Origin: Prevotella sp.
GTDB taxonomy: Bacteria > Bacteroidota > Bacteroidia > Bacteroidales > Bacteroidaceae
NCBI GenBank assembly: GCA_017548605.1
Contig: JAFYZT010000023.1
Coordinates: 124,001-188,000 of the forward strand
Direction of reading: 5' to 3'
DNA length: 64,000 nt
Shown: positions 18,347 to 23,009 of the stretch, piece by piece
Numbering within the stretch: position 1 is the first letter of the stretch
How the letters are laid out: the number at the start of each line of letters is the position of its first letter
Program-made: the position numbers and the translations under genes
The notes under the pieces: generated by a model
Seen by the model: the letters and a program-made list of their open reading frames with translations, nothing else
Databases searched by the model: none
What the model was told of the DNA's origin: nothing

Positions 18347-18619
18347 TCAAGGTGTCACAAGATAAATCTCACATGAATCGAAATTGATTTCCCAGTTGCC
18401 GTTCTCGGCACTTTCCCAGCCGTACTTTGCAGACATGCGGTTCCACCAGTCCTGATACTTGGTGGCATTTTCTCCCATGTCGGCCACCAAACGGTCATAC
18501 AACTCCACATCATTAGCGGTAAGTATCTTGGCAAGCTCTCGCAAGCCATTGCGGCGCTCAAAGAGCAACTGTATCTCATTACGTTCGTCTTCACTGACTT
18601 TTCCTACAATCTTTTTCAT
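18347..18619 (-). CDS. CXXX-repeat peptide modification system small protein
   Basis: A 90-residue soluble protein (MKKIVGKVSEDERNEIQLLF...) with Trp-rich C-terminal half (DWWNRM, GWES...NWEINF). It matches what I know as the small accessory protein of CXXX-repeat peptide systems. Its start overlaps the end of the maturase gene by four bases (ATGA), so it is the last gene of the operon. It may bind the precursor leader or act as a chaperone for the two SPASM-type proteins, but that is inference. No Cys cluster is present, apart from one Cys near the end. Confidence 0.75.
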   Translation of the reverse strand: MKKIVGKVSEDERNEIQLLFERRNGLRELAKILTANDVELYDRLVADMGENATKYQDWWNRMSAKYGWESAENGNWEINFDSCEIYLVTP

Positions 18620-19563
18620 CTTCCTATGATTTCAAAAGGGTCAAGGTAATCAATTTTTTTAATTTCGGTCTCTGGTAAAAACATCCCCTCTTCCCTAATG
18701 GACAGGAGAAGGCTGCGGGCTGCGTTTCGCTCGACATGCGACATAACGCATTGCTGATGCGAGGGAGTGTTCACCTCCAGCGTGATGCGATGGTTCAGCC
18801 AGATGCAACGGTGACACTGAAAAGCATCACATCTCCGGCAAATCGGTGCATATTGCAGTTTGTATAACTGCTGATTGGGAATCTTCGGACCAGTGGTCAG
18901 ATCTCCCACGGCAAGAGTGCCTTCCCTGGAATAATAGAATGCCGGACAAATATAGAATTGTCCATCGGGGGCAAGAGTAACAGATGAGTCGCCAGCACCA
19001 CAATTGTTCATCTCCGTCAACATCATGCGGTCGGTCAGCAAATTAAACTGAACAGGATGGTTGTTCAGGTATTCTATCTTGACCATAGCAGCCATTTGCG
19101 AAAGAACTTCACGATAAGTAACTACATCTTCATCCGAAAAAGATTCCACGTCTGTAAACACCACATTGACGCGCCCAACATGTGGAAACACCTTGTTCAA
19201 GAGTTCATATTTCTGAAAAAAGGCATTGATACTTGTGCGTATCACTATCGATTTATCTCGAATCATTTCTGACGGTTCGACATCTTCTATCTTGTCGAAC
19301 ACCATCACATCGGCATCGGTAATGTCGGCGGCAGCAGACGGTTTAATCTTGACATGGTCGATGCTCTCTATCGTCTCATTCCATTCGGTTGGCAACTCAT
19401 AAGCGGGATAGACGAACTGTATCATCAAATTCTCAGTCATCGCCCAACGAATGGATTTCTCCAATACGTCCAAAGGCATCAAACGCGCTTGGCGTGTGCC
19501 TATAGGGTAATGGCAAAACGACGTGGACGTGTCATCCAATACAACAATCAAATATCTTAGCAT
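18616..19563 (-). CDS. CXXX-repeat peptide maturase (SPASM-type cysteines, no radical SAM motif)
   Basis: A 315-residue protein. A C-terminal cysteine set, C188, C206, C242, C245, C250, C253 and C272, has the spacing of a SPASM-like auxiliary iron-sulfur domain. There is no CxxxCxxC near the N terminus (MLRYLIVVLDDTSTSFCHYP), so it should not cleave S-adenosylmethionine itself. The family is, as I recall, the companion maturase of CXXX-repeat peptides. It starts 7 bases after the radical SAM gene and is followed by the 90-residue protein. A likely role is docking or electron transfer with the active enzyme. Confidence 0.8.
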   Translation of the reverse strand: MLRYLIVVLDDTSTSFCHYPIGTRQARLMPLDVLEKSIRWAMTENLMIQFVYPAYELPTEWNETIESIDHVKIKPSAAADITDADVMVFDKIEDVEPSEMIRDKSIVIRTSINAFFQKYELLNKVFPHVGRVNVVFTDVESFSDEDVVTYREVLSQMAAMVKIEYLNNHPVQFNLLTDRMMLTEMNNCGAGDSSVTLAPDGQFYICPAFYYSREGTLAVGDLTTGPKIPNQQLYKLQYAPICRRCDAFQCHRCIWLNHRITLEVNTPSHQQCVMSHVERNAARSLLLSIREEGMFLPETEIKKIDYLDPFEIIGR

Positions 19564-19569
19564 AAGAAA

Positions 19570-20802
19570 TCAGCAAATATCGGGGTTGACATCTTTTTTG
19601 TTCTTCTCAAAATCCTCACGTTTGCCCTCTTGTTCCAACTTGCGGAACAAACGGTTCCAATAGTAGTTGTTGGCATGCACCCTTGCCTTGTGCATCAGAC
19701 AGATAGCCGTGGAACGCTGATAAATGGTCGGACTATCGGCAGCGTCGTAATTTTCTCCCTGGCACCAAGCGCATCCGCTTGCCACTTCACAGTCAATACA
19801 TTTTTGTGGTGATTGTGTAGTACGGTCGAGTGTGAGGAACGGACGTAGCTTGTTCTTGTTGATGCCGTCATGCACGTTGCCAATGATGATGGGAGCCTTT
19901 GAACGTAACGAATAGGCGGCAAAGCGTGTGCATGGATAGAAATTGCCAGCTGCGTCGATGGCTAGCATCTTGCCAGCGCCACACCAGTTATTGTTCTCAC
20001 GCTCAGGATCTAACGGCTTGCCGATGTTTTCACTGAAAAACGAGCAAGCATAGTCTTCATACCAACCTTCATCGATGATGGCATCAGCCAGTTGCATCAA
20101 CTGGTCCTCAAAGAGTCGGTCATCGCCTTCCTGCCACACATCCTCGAACACCACATTGATATTCACCTGGTGGATGCCCAGAGAGTAGAGGTGGAGCACA
20201 CTCTCCTTGATGTAGGGGATGTCGGCACTGCTGATAGTGACTTTCGTGCCAGCATCCGGGAATTGAGAAAGCCACAGAGGTATGTTCCTGACCACATCAT
20301 CATAACTGCCACGCTCATCCTTACCGCCCTTCCATATCCTGTTCAGGTCATGCTTGCGCTTTGTGCCGTCGATGGTGATGCCTATCGACAGGTGGGTGGG
20401 GTTTTTTCGGATGAATGTCTGCACCTTGTCGGAGTGGTAGTTGATACCATTGGTAGAAAAACTGAAACGATAGGAATCGAACCAATGGTGATGACGACGG
20501 TACAGTTCCTTTTTTATATAGTCGCAGATGCGGTCAATGAGGTCGATTTCAAGGAACGGCTCGCCGCCGATGAAGTCGAAAACGACCGATTTTTCGGGAA
20601 AGTCCTGTTCATGTTCCAGGATATAGTCTACAGCCTGTTTCGCCACATCCCACGACATGCGCTCTTTCTCGTTCTTACCCACCAGATAGCAATACTTGCA
20701 GGCCAACTGACAGTCCTTGGTTACAATGAAGGTGATGGATTTAGCCATTCCCTCTTGCCAGTTGCCCGCATTCCCCCTGATTGTTGCTTTCCGATTGTCC
20801 AT
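19570..20802 (-). CDS. Radical SAM peptide maturase for the CXXX-repeat target
   Basis: A 410-residue radical SAM enzyme. The SAM cluster cysteines are C31, C35 and C38 (CQLACKYC), and GGEP is at 79-82. The SPASM domain has C274, C291, C335, C338, C344, C347 and C368, enough for two auxiliary 4Fe-4S clusters. Such enzymes form thioether or other carbon-centred cross-links on Cys-rich peptides; here the Cys-every-fourth-residue precursors next door are the obvious substrate. A Cys-containing tail NPDIC ends the protein. A 14-bp hairpin separates it from the upstream precursor gene. Confidence 0.92.
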   Translation of the reverse strand: MDNRKATIRGNAGNWQEGMAKSITFIVTKDCQLACKYCYLVGKNEKERMSWDVAKQAVDYILEHEQDFPEKSVVFDFIGGEPFLEIDLIDRICDYIKKELYRRHHHWFDSYRFSFSTNGINYHSDKVQTFIRKNPTHLSIGITIDGTKRKHDLNRIWKGGKDERGSYDDVVRNIPLWLSQFPDAGTKVTISSADIPYIKESVLHLYSLGIHQVNINVVFEDVWQEGDDRLFEDQLMQLADAIIDEGWYEDYACSFFSENIGKPLDPERENNNWCGAGKMLAIDAAGNFYPCTRFAAYSLRSKAPIIIGNVHDGINKNKLRPFLTLDRTTQSPQKCIDCEVASGCAWCQGENYDAADSPTIYQRSTAICLMHKARVHANNYYWNRLFRKLEQEGKREDFEKNKKDVNPDIC

Positions 20803-20844
20803 TACGGCTCTATTTCGTGAAGAATCCTTCTATTGAATACCAAT

Positions 20845-20884
20845 AATTCTCAGACCTGCCGCGTCGGTACCAGGTCTGAGAATT
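20845..20884 (-). terminator. Hairpin between precursor and maturase genes
   Basis: Perfect 14-bp inverted repeat, AATTCTCAGACCTG (20845-20858) and CAGGTCTGAGAATT (20871-20884), with a 12-base loop. Read on the minus strand no T tract follows, so it is better seen as a partial terminator or mRNA end protector that raises precursor over enzyme levels. Confidence 0.65.
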
Positions 20885-20922
20885 GTTTTCCCGGAAAACG
20901 ATATGACATGGTCGTTGACCGT

Positions 20923-21219
20923 TTAATTTCTCGTGGAGCCATAGGAGCAACTGCCCGCGCAGTCTCCTGTGCAACTGCCATCGCAACTTTGCTGGCAACC
21001 GCCTTCGCACGACCCAGTGCAAGCGCCTCTACATCCTGTATAGCATCCGCTATTGCATCCTCCATAGCATCCCGAGCACCAAGTCGATTGGGTGTCTTTC
21101 TCATGGGCATGGCTCACGAAGGGCATCTGGCTGACGGCTATGGCACCCACGATGGGAAGAGCCTTCTTGGCGGCACTCTTGAAAAACTCGCGGCGCGATT
21201 GTAATTCCTTGCTATCCAT
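20923..21219 (-). CDS. CXXX-repeat RiPP precursor 1
   Basis: A 98-residue precursor peptide. Residues 1-38 form a leader (MDSKELQSRREFFKSAAKKA...) with a twin-arginine motif SRREFFK, a hydrophobic stretch and an A-x-A-type site near residue 38. The core has 12 Cys: C48, then C51 to C91 at every fourth position without a break. The residues between are mostly Gly, Ser, Asp, Thr, for example CTGSCEGGC and CDGSCTGDC. It shares the leader almost exactly with precursor 2. The regular Cys spacing is the substrate signature of this family of radical SAM modified peptides. Confidence 0.9.
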   Translation of the reverse strand: MDSKELQSRREFFKSAAKKALPIVGAIAVSQMPFVSHAHEKDTQSTWCSGCYGGCNSGCYTGCRGACTGSCEGGCQQSCDGSCTGDCAGSCSYGSTRN

Positions 21220-21273
21220 AAAAAGATTCGTTTGATGTTGATTTCGTTTGACTCAAAAAGGCAAGAAGCAGGA

Positions 21274-21576
21274 TTACGAACTTGTGTAGGCACATGTCCG
21301 ATAACAGTTGCCCGAGCAGTCGCCCGTGCAACTTCCGCTGCACGTGCTTCGGCAACCCCGGTAACAATCACCATCGCATGAACCTTGACAGCCCGTATAG
21401 CATCCATCGGAACATCCGCTGTCACAATTGTCATCGCAACCCATGTTAACTTTCCTCTCACGGGCATTGCCCACGAGCGGCACTTGGCTGATGGCTATGG
21501 CACCCACAATGGGAAGAGCCTTCTTGGCTGCGCTCTTGAAAAAATCGCGTCGCGATTGCAATTCTTTGCTATCCAT
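21274..21576 (-). CDS. CXXX-repeat RiPP precursor 2
   Basis: A 100-residue precursor and the first gene of the operon. The leader is nearly identical to precursor 1 (SRRDFFKSAAKKALPIVG). The core has 13 Cys from C47 to C95, every fourth residue without exception. It is more charged than precursor 1 (CDDNC, CYRGC, CYRTC), so the two products differ in side-chain chemistry while keeping the Cys grid. A promoter, TATATTTG with TTG 20 bases upstream (complement of 21613-21643), lies 37 bases ahead of the start. Confidence 0.9.
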   Translation of the reverse strand: MDSKELQSRRDFFKSAAKKALPIVGAIAISQVPLVGNARERKVNMGCDDNCDSGCSDGCYTGCQGSCDGDCYRGCRSTCSGSCTGDCSGNCYRTCAYTSS

Positions 21577-21612
21577 AACTGACTAATTCATAAATAATTA
21601 CTAAATATCGGC

Positions 21613-21643
21613 CAAATATAACACCAATAATTTTTTTTTGCAA
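21613..21643 (-). promoter_or_regulatory. Promoter of the CXXX-repeat peptide operon
   Basis: On the minus strand TTG (complement of 21641-21643) and TATATTTG (complement of 21613-21620) are about 20 bases apart. The region is very AT-rich with a nine-base T run between the boxes on the plus strand. Confidence 0.7.
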
Positions 21644-21719: not shown

Positions 21720-23009
21720 CTAATCTCCGTATGTAACACGGAAGATATTGACGGCGTTACCACCTTGGTTACGTCGACCCTGTGAGGTGACGATGACCCA
21801 CTGGCCATCGCGGGAGATATCGAGGCCCACGGGGTAGGAGTCGCAGGTGATACGTGCCACAGTGCGCATCTTCCGGGTGTCAACCACGCATACCTCGGAA
21901 GCAGCGTTACAGGCTGCAAAGACATAGTGTCCGTCAGGGGAAATCTCGATAGTGCGTGCGCCAGTTCCTACCTGACACTCCTCCCAACCAGAGACCGAAC
22001 CGAGGTGGTTCTTCATCTGCCGAGCCGCCTCGAGAAATTTCTCCAACGGCAGGCGCTGCACATAACCGGCAGCATTGATGCTGAGATAGAGATAGCCGTT
22101 GTTGATGACGAGGTGGCGAACGTTTGAACGCATGCCCTGCACCCGTCCGAGGTATTCCATGTTCTGCATGTCGAAGACAGCAATACCTCCCGACTGCCCC
22201 ATACACCCTACAAGCAGGTAATGGTCGTCGGGCGTGAACACCGTGCCACGCAGACAGTAGCCACTGTTATTGTCACGGTCAATCTGATGTGTCATGCTGA
22301 AGTTCAACGGCAGCACATAATCGACCACCAGCAGCCGTTCGTGCCGCCATTCCTGAGGATTATCGCTGTCGACACGCACCAGTCCGACAGTGTTGTTGCC
22401 CCAATGAGTGATGGCCACATATTTGCCATCGTGAGAGCAACACACCATCTTTGGTAATGGACCAGTTTCCATGAGGCGCACTATCTCATCGGTTTCCGTA
22501 TCGATGATGGCCAATGCTGAGGGGTCCTGCGCATTGATATCGTAGGTACGCCGATAGTAAGGCACCCAGAAATAACGTCCACCATGCGAGAAACAACCCT
22601 CGACGGGTTTTCCCGCAAAGGTGTTCAGGTTCGTCTTATAGTGCGTGAACGGGTAGAGGTCTGACGGTGGACTCCACAGCGCATCTTTCGACGGGTCACA
22701 CTGGTGGTTGATGGTCTTGAGTTTTCGGTTCGTACCCATCTCGAAGACCACGGTGGCACATCCCTCGAGCGAGTTGATATAGTATTTCTTGCCGTTAGGG
22801 TGTATGTTCGCCGACTTCGGTGAGTTGACGGCCGTCTCGCGCGTCTGCGCATCACCACCGCTATAGTTCTGGCGTTTATCAACAGAGGTGATAGTGAGCT
22901 GTCCGTCATCAGAACGCACCGACGTGCCCAAGACGGAGTGTTTGAGTGGCGGCTGTGCCGTGGCCTGCAGGGCGAAGAGAGCAAGGGCTGCAATAAGAAG
23001 TTTTTTCAT
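21720..23009 (-). CDS. Secreted YncE-like beta-propeller protein
   Basis: A 429-residue exported protein with a signal peptide (MKKLLIAALALFALQATAQ). It has repeated propeller-blade motifs such as SPDGHYVFAACNAASEVCVVDT, SRDGQWVIVTSQG and TPDDHYLLVGC, as in YncE/surface-layer beta-propellers. Such proteins bind ligands or scaffold others in the periplasm. The gene lies upstream of the CXXX-repeat operon on the same strand, with the operon's own promoter in between, so a link with the peptides is possible but unproven. No promoter box was clear upstream. Confidence 0.8.
   Translation of the reverse strand: MKKLLIAALALFALQATAQPPLKHSVLGTSVRSDDGQLTITSVDKRQNYSGGDAQTRETAVNSPKSANIHPNGKKYYINSLEGCATVVFEMGTNRKLKTINHQCDPSKDALWSPPSDLYPFTHYKTNLNTFAGKPVEGCFSHGGRYFWVPYYRRTYDINAQDPSALAIIDTETDEIVRLMETGPLPKMVCCSHDGKYVAITHWGNNTVGLVRVDSDNPQEWRHERLLVVDYVLPLNFSMTHQIDRDNNSGYCLRGTVFTPDDHYLLVGCMGQSGGIAVFDMQNMEYLGRVQGMRSNVRHLVINNGYLYLSINAAGYVQRLPLEKFLEAARQMKNHLGSVSGWEECQVGTGARTIEISPDGHYVFAACNAASEVCVVDTRKMRTVARITCDSYPVGLDISRDGQWVIVTSQGRRNQGGNAVNIFRVTYGD

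Follow-up and report, generated by a model that had tools for sequence, protein, structure and literature searches.

Comparison of a CXXX-repeat peptide operon from a Prevotella-like bacterium with related clusters suggests, on sequence evidence, that the CXXX peptides of these clusters leave the cell already folded via the twin-arginine (Tat) pathway, and that the channel is often encoded beside them. The operon lies in a 64,000-nucleotide stretch of DNA (the window) and consists of five minus-strand genes (18347-21576). These encode precursor 1 (21274..21576; 100 residues, 13 Cys in CXXX repeats) and precursor 2 (20923..21219; 98 residues, 12 Cys), both with a twin-arginine leader, a radical SAM/SPASM peptide maturase (19570..20802), a SPASM partner without the CxxxCxxC motif (18616..19563) and a 90-residue accessory protein (18347..18619). 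The five open reading frames of the initial annotation were confirmed on the sequence, as was its radical SAM motif, CxxxCxxC at 31-38, where C31, C35 and C38 are invariant in a 17-row alignment. Cys had been placed at every fourth position of the precursors; this spacing has one exception, the first interval of precursor 2, which is CXX.

The annotation had recognised a CXXX-repeat peptide system and had named a family comparison as the test of it. The maturase, partner and accessory protein all score above the curated NCBIfam cut-offs, at 638.1 bits against TIGR04115 (cut-off 350), 224.4 bits against TIGR04119 (cut-off 150) and 91.3 bits against TIGR04116 (cut-off 50), respectively; similarity therefore reaches past the cluster motif, and its restriction to that motif is ruled out. 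Precursors 1 and 2 fall below the cut-off of TIGR04117 (49.6 and 43.7 bits; cut-off 50) and exceed that of the repeat model TIGR04114 (21.0 and 20.7 bits; cut-off 20). The NCBIfam CXXX-repeat peptide system (TIGR04114, 04115, 04116, 04117 and 04119) covers every gene of the window operon. As the matches above cut-off mean that this kind of system is already named, the description of it as undescribed is fair for its chemistry, export and role and not for its gene families; nothing on these three aspects was found in the literature among the matches listed. The names of the NCBIfam models are silent on export, and what is new here is the proposed export route, the tatA-tatC linkage, the lipoprotein precursors and the gene fusions. 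The Tat-like leader, the tatA-tatC genes of many relatives and the resemblance of several precursors to lipoproteins had escaped the earlier reader.

Tat signal peptides follow the rule (S/T)RRxFxK, then a hydrophobic stretch and a cleavage site. Both window precursors conform to this rule by sequence, with the leaders SRRDFFK in precursor 1 and SRREFFK in precursor 2 and signal-peptidase-like sites, located by eye, at GNA↓RE and SHA↓HE, respectively. In 59 related clusters the motif [RK]Rx[FL][FLM] is present in 78 of the 85 same-strand CXXX ORFs and the leader consensus is ELQSRREFFKKAAKxxLPILG. Seven ORFs lack the motif: those of L118 and L119 have RRRFI and, judged by eye, a stretch resembling a lipobox; that of L097 forms the end of a larger protein; that of L112 is the back part of a precursor that starts in a different frame; and those of L117, L120 and L036 are fragments or unlike. 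Precursors with fewer than four consecutive CXXX (L090, L128 and another in L097) fall outside the 85. In the set of 71 distinct precursors that carry [RK]RxFF, S/T precedes RR in 60 and K/R follows FF in 70 (both in 59), and these positions lie outside the selection motif. Across every reading frame of these regions there are 16 further RRxFF strings, five of which fit the Tat rule. Each of the five belongs to a cluster precursor, in L112 to its front part and otherwise to precursors of L090, L097, L128 and L131, so that no unrelated string fits.

Conservation of the leader continues past the Tat motif, with L at +12 in 63/71 and P at +13 in 69/71, as would be expected of an enzyme docking site. 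The matches to Tat profiles are weak: TIGR01409 matched 2/55 precursors, weakly (best E 0.14), and TIGR02811 matched 11/55. Both observations would suit a leader that serves only for recognition by the maturase, its Tat likeness having arisen by chance and the peptide being exported otherwise or not at all. Such an explanation has very little probability in view of the gene neighbourhood, in which tatA and tatC are found 3' of TIGR04116 in 43 of 66 clusters. Linked tatC is present in 38 of the 59 related clusters and in five of seven additional clusters found in other families within the order, and the gene order partner, TIGR04116, tatA, tatC is the same in 38/38 tatC-linked clusters. No tatA-tatC pair is found beside TIGR04116 in the window's own region (L135), so the operon, which had been called complete, is complete for the maturation genes and lacks this pair; the genome (G000) has one TatC, unlinked, on another contig. 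Another 20 clusters of the 59 are likewise without linked tatC. Three clusters counted as not linked, L085 and L133, which stop at a contig end, and L086, which extends at most 1.3 kb past the last core gene, end at or near the end of a contig, so that a tatC could be hidden there.

The phylogeny of TatC also argues against a leader used for recognition only. In a tree with 41 unlinked TatCs from the sampled genomes, the 37 cluster TatCs fall together in a single, separate group (support 100/99), which is recovered (support 99) in a second tree for which four short unlinked rows were taken longer; the TatC of L109, in two pieces, was omitted from both trees. Both the maturase and the TatC are identical between L123 and L124, and the maturases of L034 and L035 are nearly so. 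By our reading of the counts, the cluster TatC is the sole full-length TatC in 8/52 CXXX genomes, and the sole TatC is unlinked in 14/52. TatC is common without the system: in the family sample it occurs in 202 of 266 CXXX-negative genomes, compared with 35/35 CXXX genomes (p 0.00024). This genome-level excess was set aside as proof because the clusters themselves contribute a TatC and the genomes are not independent by descent; where all clusters of a genome in the family sample are unlinked, TatC is present in 8/8 and the excess is not significant (p 0.20). We put at about even the chance that these systems represent a class of Tat-exported, folded RiPPs, in part cross-linked Cys-rich surface lipoproteins, where most of the Bacteroidales clusters seen have a specialised TatA-TatC inherited together with them (marked by a near-diagnostic Gln in place of the Glu of unlinked TatCs) and the operon provides the only Tat translocase of some genomes.

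The existence of lipobox and AxA classes of precursor is a further point against recognition alone. At least 21 of the 71 precursors have a lipobox and an acidic run, and in the others the leader runs to a signal-peptidase-like site. The seven residues after the lipobox Cys include a mean of 3.5 acidic residues (21 precursors), compared with 0.56 after the first Cys in the other 50, and AxA precedes the first Cys in 43 of these 50. Among the seven precursors without AxA, those of L080, L103 and L127 resemble lipoproteins and were missed by the lipobox filter. The export signal of Bacteroidota surface lipoproteins is K-(D/E)2 or Q-A-(D/E)2 (PMC5080379), and the lipoprotein-class precursors share, by sequence, an acidic run after the lipobox Cys. 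The precursors of the window lie outside this class.

The Cys pattern of the precursor bodies is far from random, with 12 Cys pairs at i,i+4 in precursor 1 and 10 in precursor 2, counts reached by 0/20,000 residue shuffles of each body. A known system that it recalls is the ranthipeptide pair PapA/PapB (freyrasin): both have many Cys, the spacing in the window is reminiscent of CX3D, and PapB is the second-best NCBIfam family for the window maturase, though at 200.3 bits it is below the cut-off of 340 (NF047865). In the PapA/PapB system the acceptors are Asp/Glu (PMC9413430), whereas such residues are rare in CXXX precursors, where they account for 9, 6 and 5% of residues at X1, X2 and X3, respectively (1149 CXXXC units, 69 precursors). 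The PapB Cys-to-Asp/Glu chemistry is therefore no simple carry-over. A test for the PapA-type Cys-X3-Asp/Glu motif failed, the residue after X3 being Cys by definition in CXXXC units.

The scarcity of acidic PapB-type acceptors, the Tat-like leader and the abundance of Cys (7 to 61 per body, median 15, in 69 precursors) would also be consistent with repeats loaded with metal or Fe-S, in which case the radical SAM enzyme would make a minor change and Tat would serve mainly for folded, loaded export, as for many cofactor-bearing substrates. We regard this as unlikely because a maturase resembling PapB/CteB belongs to the core genes, the families recurring in more than six of the 60 regions fetched serve maturation or Tat, and no metal transporter or cluster-assembly gene was seen among these recurrent neighbours. 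The recurrent families are the maturase, the partner/adaptor, the precursors, tatC, tatA and one ORF group, read as tatA antisense, in regions of up to 16 kb, so that short or fast-evolving genes and genes farther out would be missed. A role as a secreted RiPP, antimicrobial or for signalling, with genes for immunity or a receptor in the neighbourhood would accord with the precursors being variable paralogues, up to five per locus (L083), but appears quite improbable, as nothing beyond these families recurs in more than six of the regions.

The nearest solved sequence to the maturase is 5wgg (E 3.1e-33), which we take to be CteB, a SCIFF maturase, and which is also the best solved match of the SPASM part of the partner, yet the maturase is far under the SCIFF cut-off (TIGR03974; 112.4 bits, cut-off 425). 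An antiviral viperin identity was rejected, as the PADLOC viperin models gave just 35 and 23 bits, the level of a generic radical SAM protein. The phage radical SAM family phrog_1802 matched over nearly the full length (175 bits), which was taken as kinship and not as phage origin. The partner aligns with the C-terminal half of the maturase (hhalign, E 1.3e-5, probability 81) and eight of its Cys (17, 188, 206, 242, 245, 250, 253 and 272) are invariant in a 17-row alignment, making it a candidate pseudo-radical-SAM protein; its first 100 residues gave only weak matches in profile searches of NCBIfam and Pfam. The accessory protein is a candidate leader-binding or Tat-handover adaptor. A PDB profile search (E up to 10) assigned it no known fold, the best of 12 matches having an E of 0.49, and no Pfam family reached its cut-off (best HTH_38, 19 bits compared with 27). 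The radical SAM enzyme and the partner are fused in one gene in L185, and the partner and TIGR04116 in one ORF in L118, a pattern also seen in L119.

We consider it likely that the leader serves for both maturase docking and Tat export, the repeats acquiring their modifications and fold in the cytoplasm before they pass through Tat and are released or anchored at the surface. The leader would provide the docking site of a complex in which the radical SAM/SPASM enzyme, the motif-less SPASM partner and the 90-residue adaptor modify the CXXX repeats, most likely by thioethers linking Cys sulfur to nearby residues. The folded, cross-linked product would be poorly threaded through Sec and so would use Tat, by way of a dedicated TatA-TatC in many relatives and of the single unlinked TatC in the window's host. 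Signal peptidase I would then free the peptide, while paralogues in other genomes would be made lipoproteins by Lgt/LspA, their acidic run directing them to the outer surface.

Dedicated ABC transporters are a common export route of RiPPs. A Tat-signal leader with its own Tat channel would, if confirmed, explain how a heavily cross-linked peptide exits a Gram-negative cell, allow the folding requirement of Tat to be probed with a natural substrate and point to a novel type of peptide on the surface of Bacteroidota from gut and rumen. This reading also makes the CXXX chemistry testable, as the product can be sought in the periplasm, outer membrane and medium.

A single upstream promoter had been proposed. 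A promoter-like site (GTTG-20-TATATTTG; 21644-21613, minus strand), matching what we take to be the Bacteroidota-type consensus, is present and ends 36 bases 5' of precursor 1; it is the one match in the window, where 0.8 is expected by chance. A sigma-70 scan found two sites in the region, fewer than in shuffles (mean 4.6), one of which coincides with the promoter-like site (21643-21615). With matches near chance level and a scan below shuffles, a promoter upstream of precursor 1 is no more than plausible. The terminator scan gave 10 sites compared with 2.7 in shuffles and none directly 3' of the last gene on the operon strand, and is thus uninformative on the transcript end. The gap between precursor 2 and the maturase (20803-20922) has a fold z of -3.8, and the matching stretch has z -4.3 in L033 and z -0.5 in L034. 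It includes a minus-strand hairpin (20845..20884), possibly an attenuator or processing hairpin, the stem of which is kept in four rows of the alignment.

The five minus-strand genes that the initial annotation had described as a CXXX-repeat peptide operon with two Cys-repeat precursors were borne out in coordinates, Cys counts and NCBIfam scores. They encode precursor 1 (21274-21576, an ORF with 13 Cys), precursor 2 (20923-21219, an ORF with 12 Cys), a radical SAM enzyme, the maturase (19570-20802; TIGR04115, 638 bits, cut-off 350), its partner (18616-19563; TIGR04119, 224 bits, cut-off 150) and a small protein (18347-18619; TIGR04116, 91 bits, cut-off 50), all three maturation proteins exceeding the curated cut-offs. 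Precursors 1 and 2 contain 12 and 10 Cys pairs at i,i+4, respectively, numbers that no shuffle of the precursor body reached (20,000 per precursor); they score 21.0 and 20.7 bits with the repeat model TIGR04114 (over the cut-off of 20) and 49.6 and 43.7 bits with TIGR04117 (slightly below the cut-off of 50). As ORFs, Cys spacing and NCBIfam scores fit, the operon belongs to a named CXXX system, uncharacterised as far as the literature search showed. Many such families reportedly stem from work by Haft and Basu in 2011. Searches of open-licence full text, using the names of the CXXX families or pairing Tat with radical SAM and RiPP terms, revealed no paper on the system among the papers listed; an earlier note of the Tat connection is possible. 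By term search, Tat and CXXX are absent from the main text of a survey of Bacteroidales RiPPs (PMC10352776).

The precursors were compared across 59 clusters, namely the regions fetched around 54 clusters, the window's own region and four near relatives (L033 to L036). Same-strand ORFs containing four or more CXXX repeats were picked regardless of leader; of these 85, 78 contain the motif [RK]Rx[FL][FLM]. In the 71 distinct precursors selected by [RK]RxFF, RR is invariant (71/71), and two positions unused in the selection are also conserved, with S/T before RR in 60, K/R after FF in 70 and both together in 59. Scanning every frame of these regions gave 16 further RRxFF strings; five have both S/T and K/R, and each of the five is a cluster precursor or a fragment of a precursor (L090, L097, L112, L128 and L131). 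No unrelated string has both. The leader resembles a twin-arginine (Tat) signal, and the family evidence points to export of the modified Cys-repeat peptides by the Tat route, which, as a review mentions, engineers have used for nisin display (PMC11048544). Profile models of Tat signals match weakly (TIGR01409, 2/55 precursors; TIGR02811, 11/55). Conservation in the leaders also goes beyond the requirements of Tat, with P at +13 (69/71) and L at +12 (63/71), probably marking where the enzymes dock. Precursor-like ORFs with a twin-arginine leader and hardly any Cys repeats, perhaps decaying precursors, were found at L123:6736-7047 (+) and L124:8480-8791 (-). In another genome of the genus, a CXXX-repeat peptide (L023:2607-2894, minus strand) has a double-glycine type leader (INIRGG), not a Tat leader, and a different radical SAM gene nearby.

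The usual gene order is precursors, maturase, partner, TIGR04116, tatA and tatC, the genes mostly overlapping or almost so. tatC is linked in 38 of the 59 clusters, and the order partner, TIGR04116, tatA, tatC is kept in all 38. Of seven additional clusters, taken from other families within the order, five are linked, bringing the total to 43 of 66, which points to a dedicated translocase in these clusters for the predicted Tat export. The tatC match starts at most about 1.3 kb from the last partner match in 37 of the 38, and 6.6 kb away in L105 (G225:C85). There, about 5.7 kb separates the partner from TIGR04116, tatA and tatC, which lie together, as if inserted DNA had come between and these genes move as one block. 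tatA occurs without tatC in L088, L130 and L133, the last cut off by a contig end, and neither gene was found in the window's region (L135), L033 to L036 or the phylum-level regions L117 to L120. The maturase tree requires a minimum of 10 changes in linkage, compared with 17 in shuffles; tatAC was therefore probably lost, or gained, several times.

TatC is encoded in all 52 CXXX genomes tested, compared with 237 of 301 genomes in the family sample. Genome matches read against the cluster maps gave both linked and unlinked TatC in 29 of the 52; the linked copy is the sole full-length one in eight, one of which also has a stop-bearing remnant, 14 have unlinked TatC only, the window's genome among them, and one (G113) could not be assigned. 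At G143:C11:299841-300068, a short TatC-like stretch contains two in-frame stops, and the full-length TatC there is the cluster copy.

In a careful tree, one branch (support 100/99) separates 37 cluster TatCs from 41 unlinked TatCs; a second tree, built by a faster method and with four short rows extended, gave the same split (support 99). In a tally partly completed by eye from the exceptions, Gln in an F-Q-L-P string is present in 37 of 38 cluster TatCs, while 36 of 37 readable unlinked TatCs have Glu at this position and one has Gln. In E. coli TatC, this Glu is a conserved residue within the membrane. Because the P-A-L-Y...E-R region (37/38 cluster, 33/37 unlinked) and HLExxR (33/38 and 13/37) are retained, the cluster TatCs look functional.

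Downstream of the hydrophobic stretch, the 71 precursors form two classes. A lipobox Cys is present in 21, and the seven residues after it include 3.5 acidic ones on average; such acidic runs following the lipid Cys resemble the Bacteroidota surface export signal (PMC5080379). The other 50, which include both window precursors, have a mean of 0.56 acidic residues in the seven after the first Cys; a permissive AxA pattern precedes that Cys in 43 of them. By eye, the putative window sites are GNA|RE and SHA|HE.

The top solved match of the maturase is 5wgg (E 3.1e-33), presumably CteB. In a 17-row alignment the partner has eight invariant Cys and no CxxxCxxC; its middle section can be aligned to the SPASM regions of both the maturase (hhalign E 1.3e-5, probability 81) and 5wgg (E 0.0019). 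We read the partner as a candidate radical SAM relative that retains the auxiliary clusters but no longer has the SAM cluster. Fusions at both joints (a single 725 aa frame holding maturase and partner in L185; TIGR04116 at the end of the partner frame in L118, with L119 looking alike) support one complex of maturase, partner and TIGR04116. Tandem maturase genes occur in L084, L104 and L128.

The nearest other family for the maturase is PapB (200 bits, below the cut-off of 340), described as joining Cys to Asp/Glu within CX3D/E motifs (PMC9413430). By contrast, Asp and Glu together account for only 9, 6 and 5% of X1, X2 and X3 in the CXXX precursors, where 85% of Cys-Cys spacings are four and Gly, Ser, Thr, Ala and Asn make up 53, 74 and 83%, X3 being the most constrained. 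Should thioethers be formed, a carboxylate side chain is an unlikely acceptor, and X3 or X2 would be candidates.

The window's genome (3.25 Mb, 55 contigs) revealed no further precursor in a search to E 1. The closest named relatives comprise a Prevotella MAG of water-buffalo abomasum (L033), two Prevotellaceae MAGs (L034 and L035; partner identity 75-79%) and a Muribaculaceae MAG (L036; 54%). Within the genus, 14 of 150 genomes have a maturase-family match above cut-off. The partner family (E 1e-20 or better) is present in 35 of 301, 8 of 344 and 5 of 296 genomes of the family, order and phylum samples, respectively, each count including the window's own genome.

Directly upstream, on the same strand, lies a gene for a beta-propeller protein (21720-23009; Lactonase, PF10282, 34.9 bits). 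It is probably outside the system, as BLASTP at E 1e-5 against the ORFs called in the remaining 59 fetched regions found no match. A promoter-like site is rightly placed, yet such a pattern is not rare within the window. Between precursor 2 and the maturase, folding and alignment gave a hairpin (20845-20884) with a conserved stem of 13-14 pairs; relative to shuffles, folding of this stretch is favoured in the window (z -3.8) and in L033 (z -4.3) but not in L034 (z -0.5). Our guess is that it keeps precursor RNA above enzyme RNA.

In L003 (3088-3936, minus strand) and L097, CXXX repeats end a larger domain protein inside the cluster, so the repeats may also serve as tails of bigger proteins. 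Related peptide maturases may occur in some phages, since the phage protein family phrog_1802 matches the window maturase over almost its full length (175 bits).
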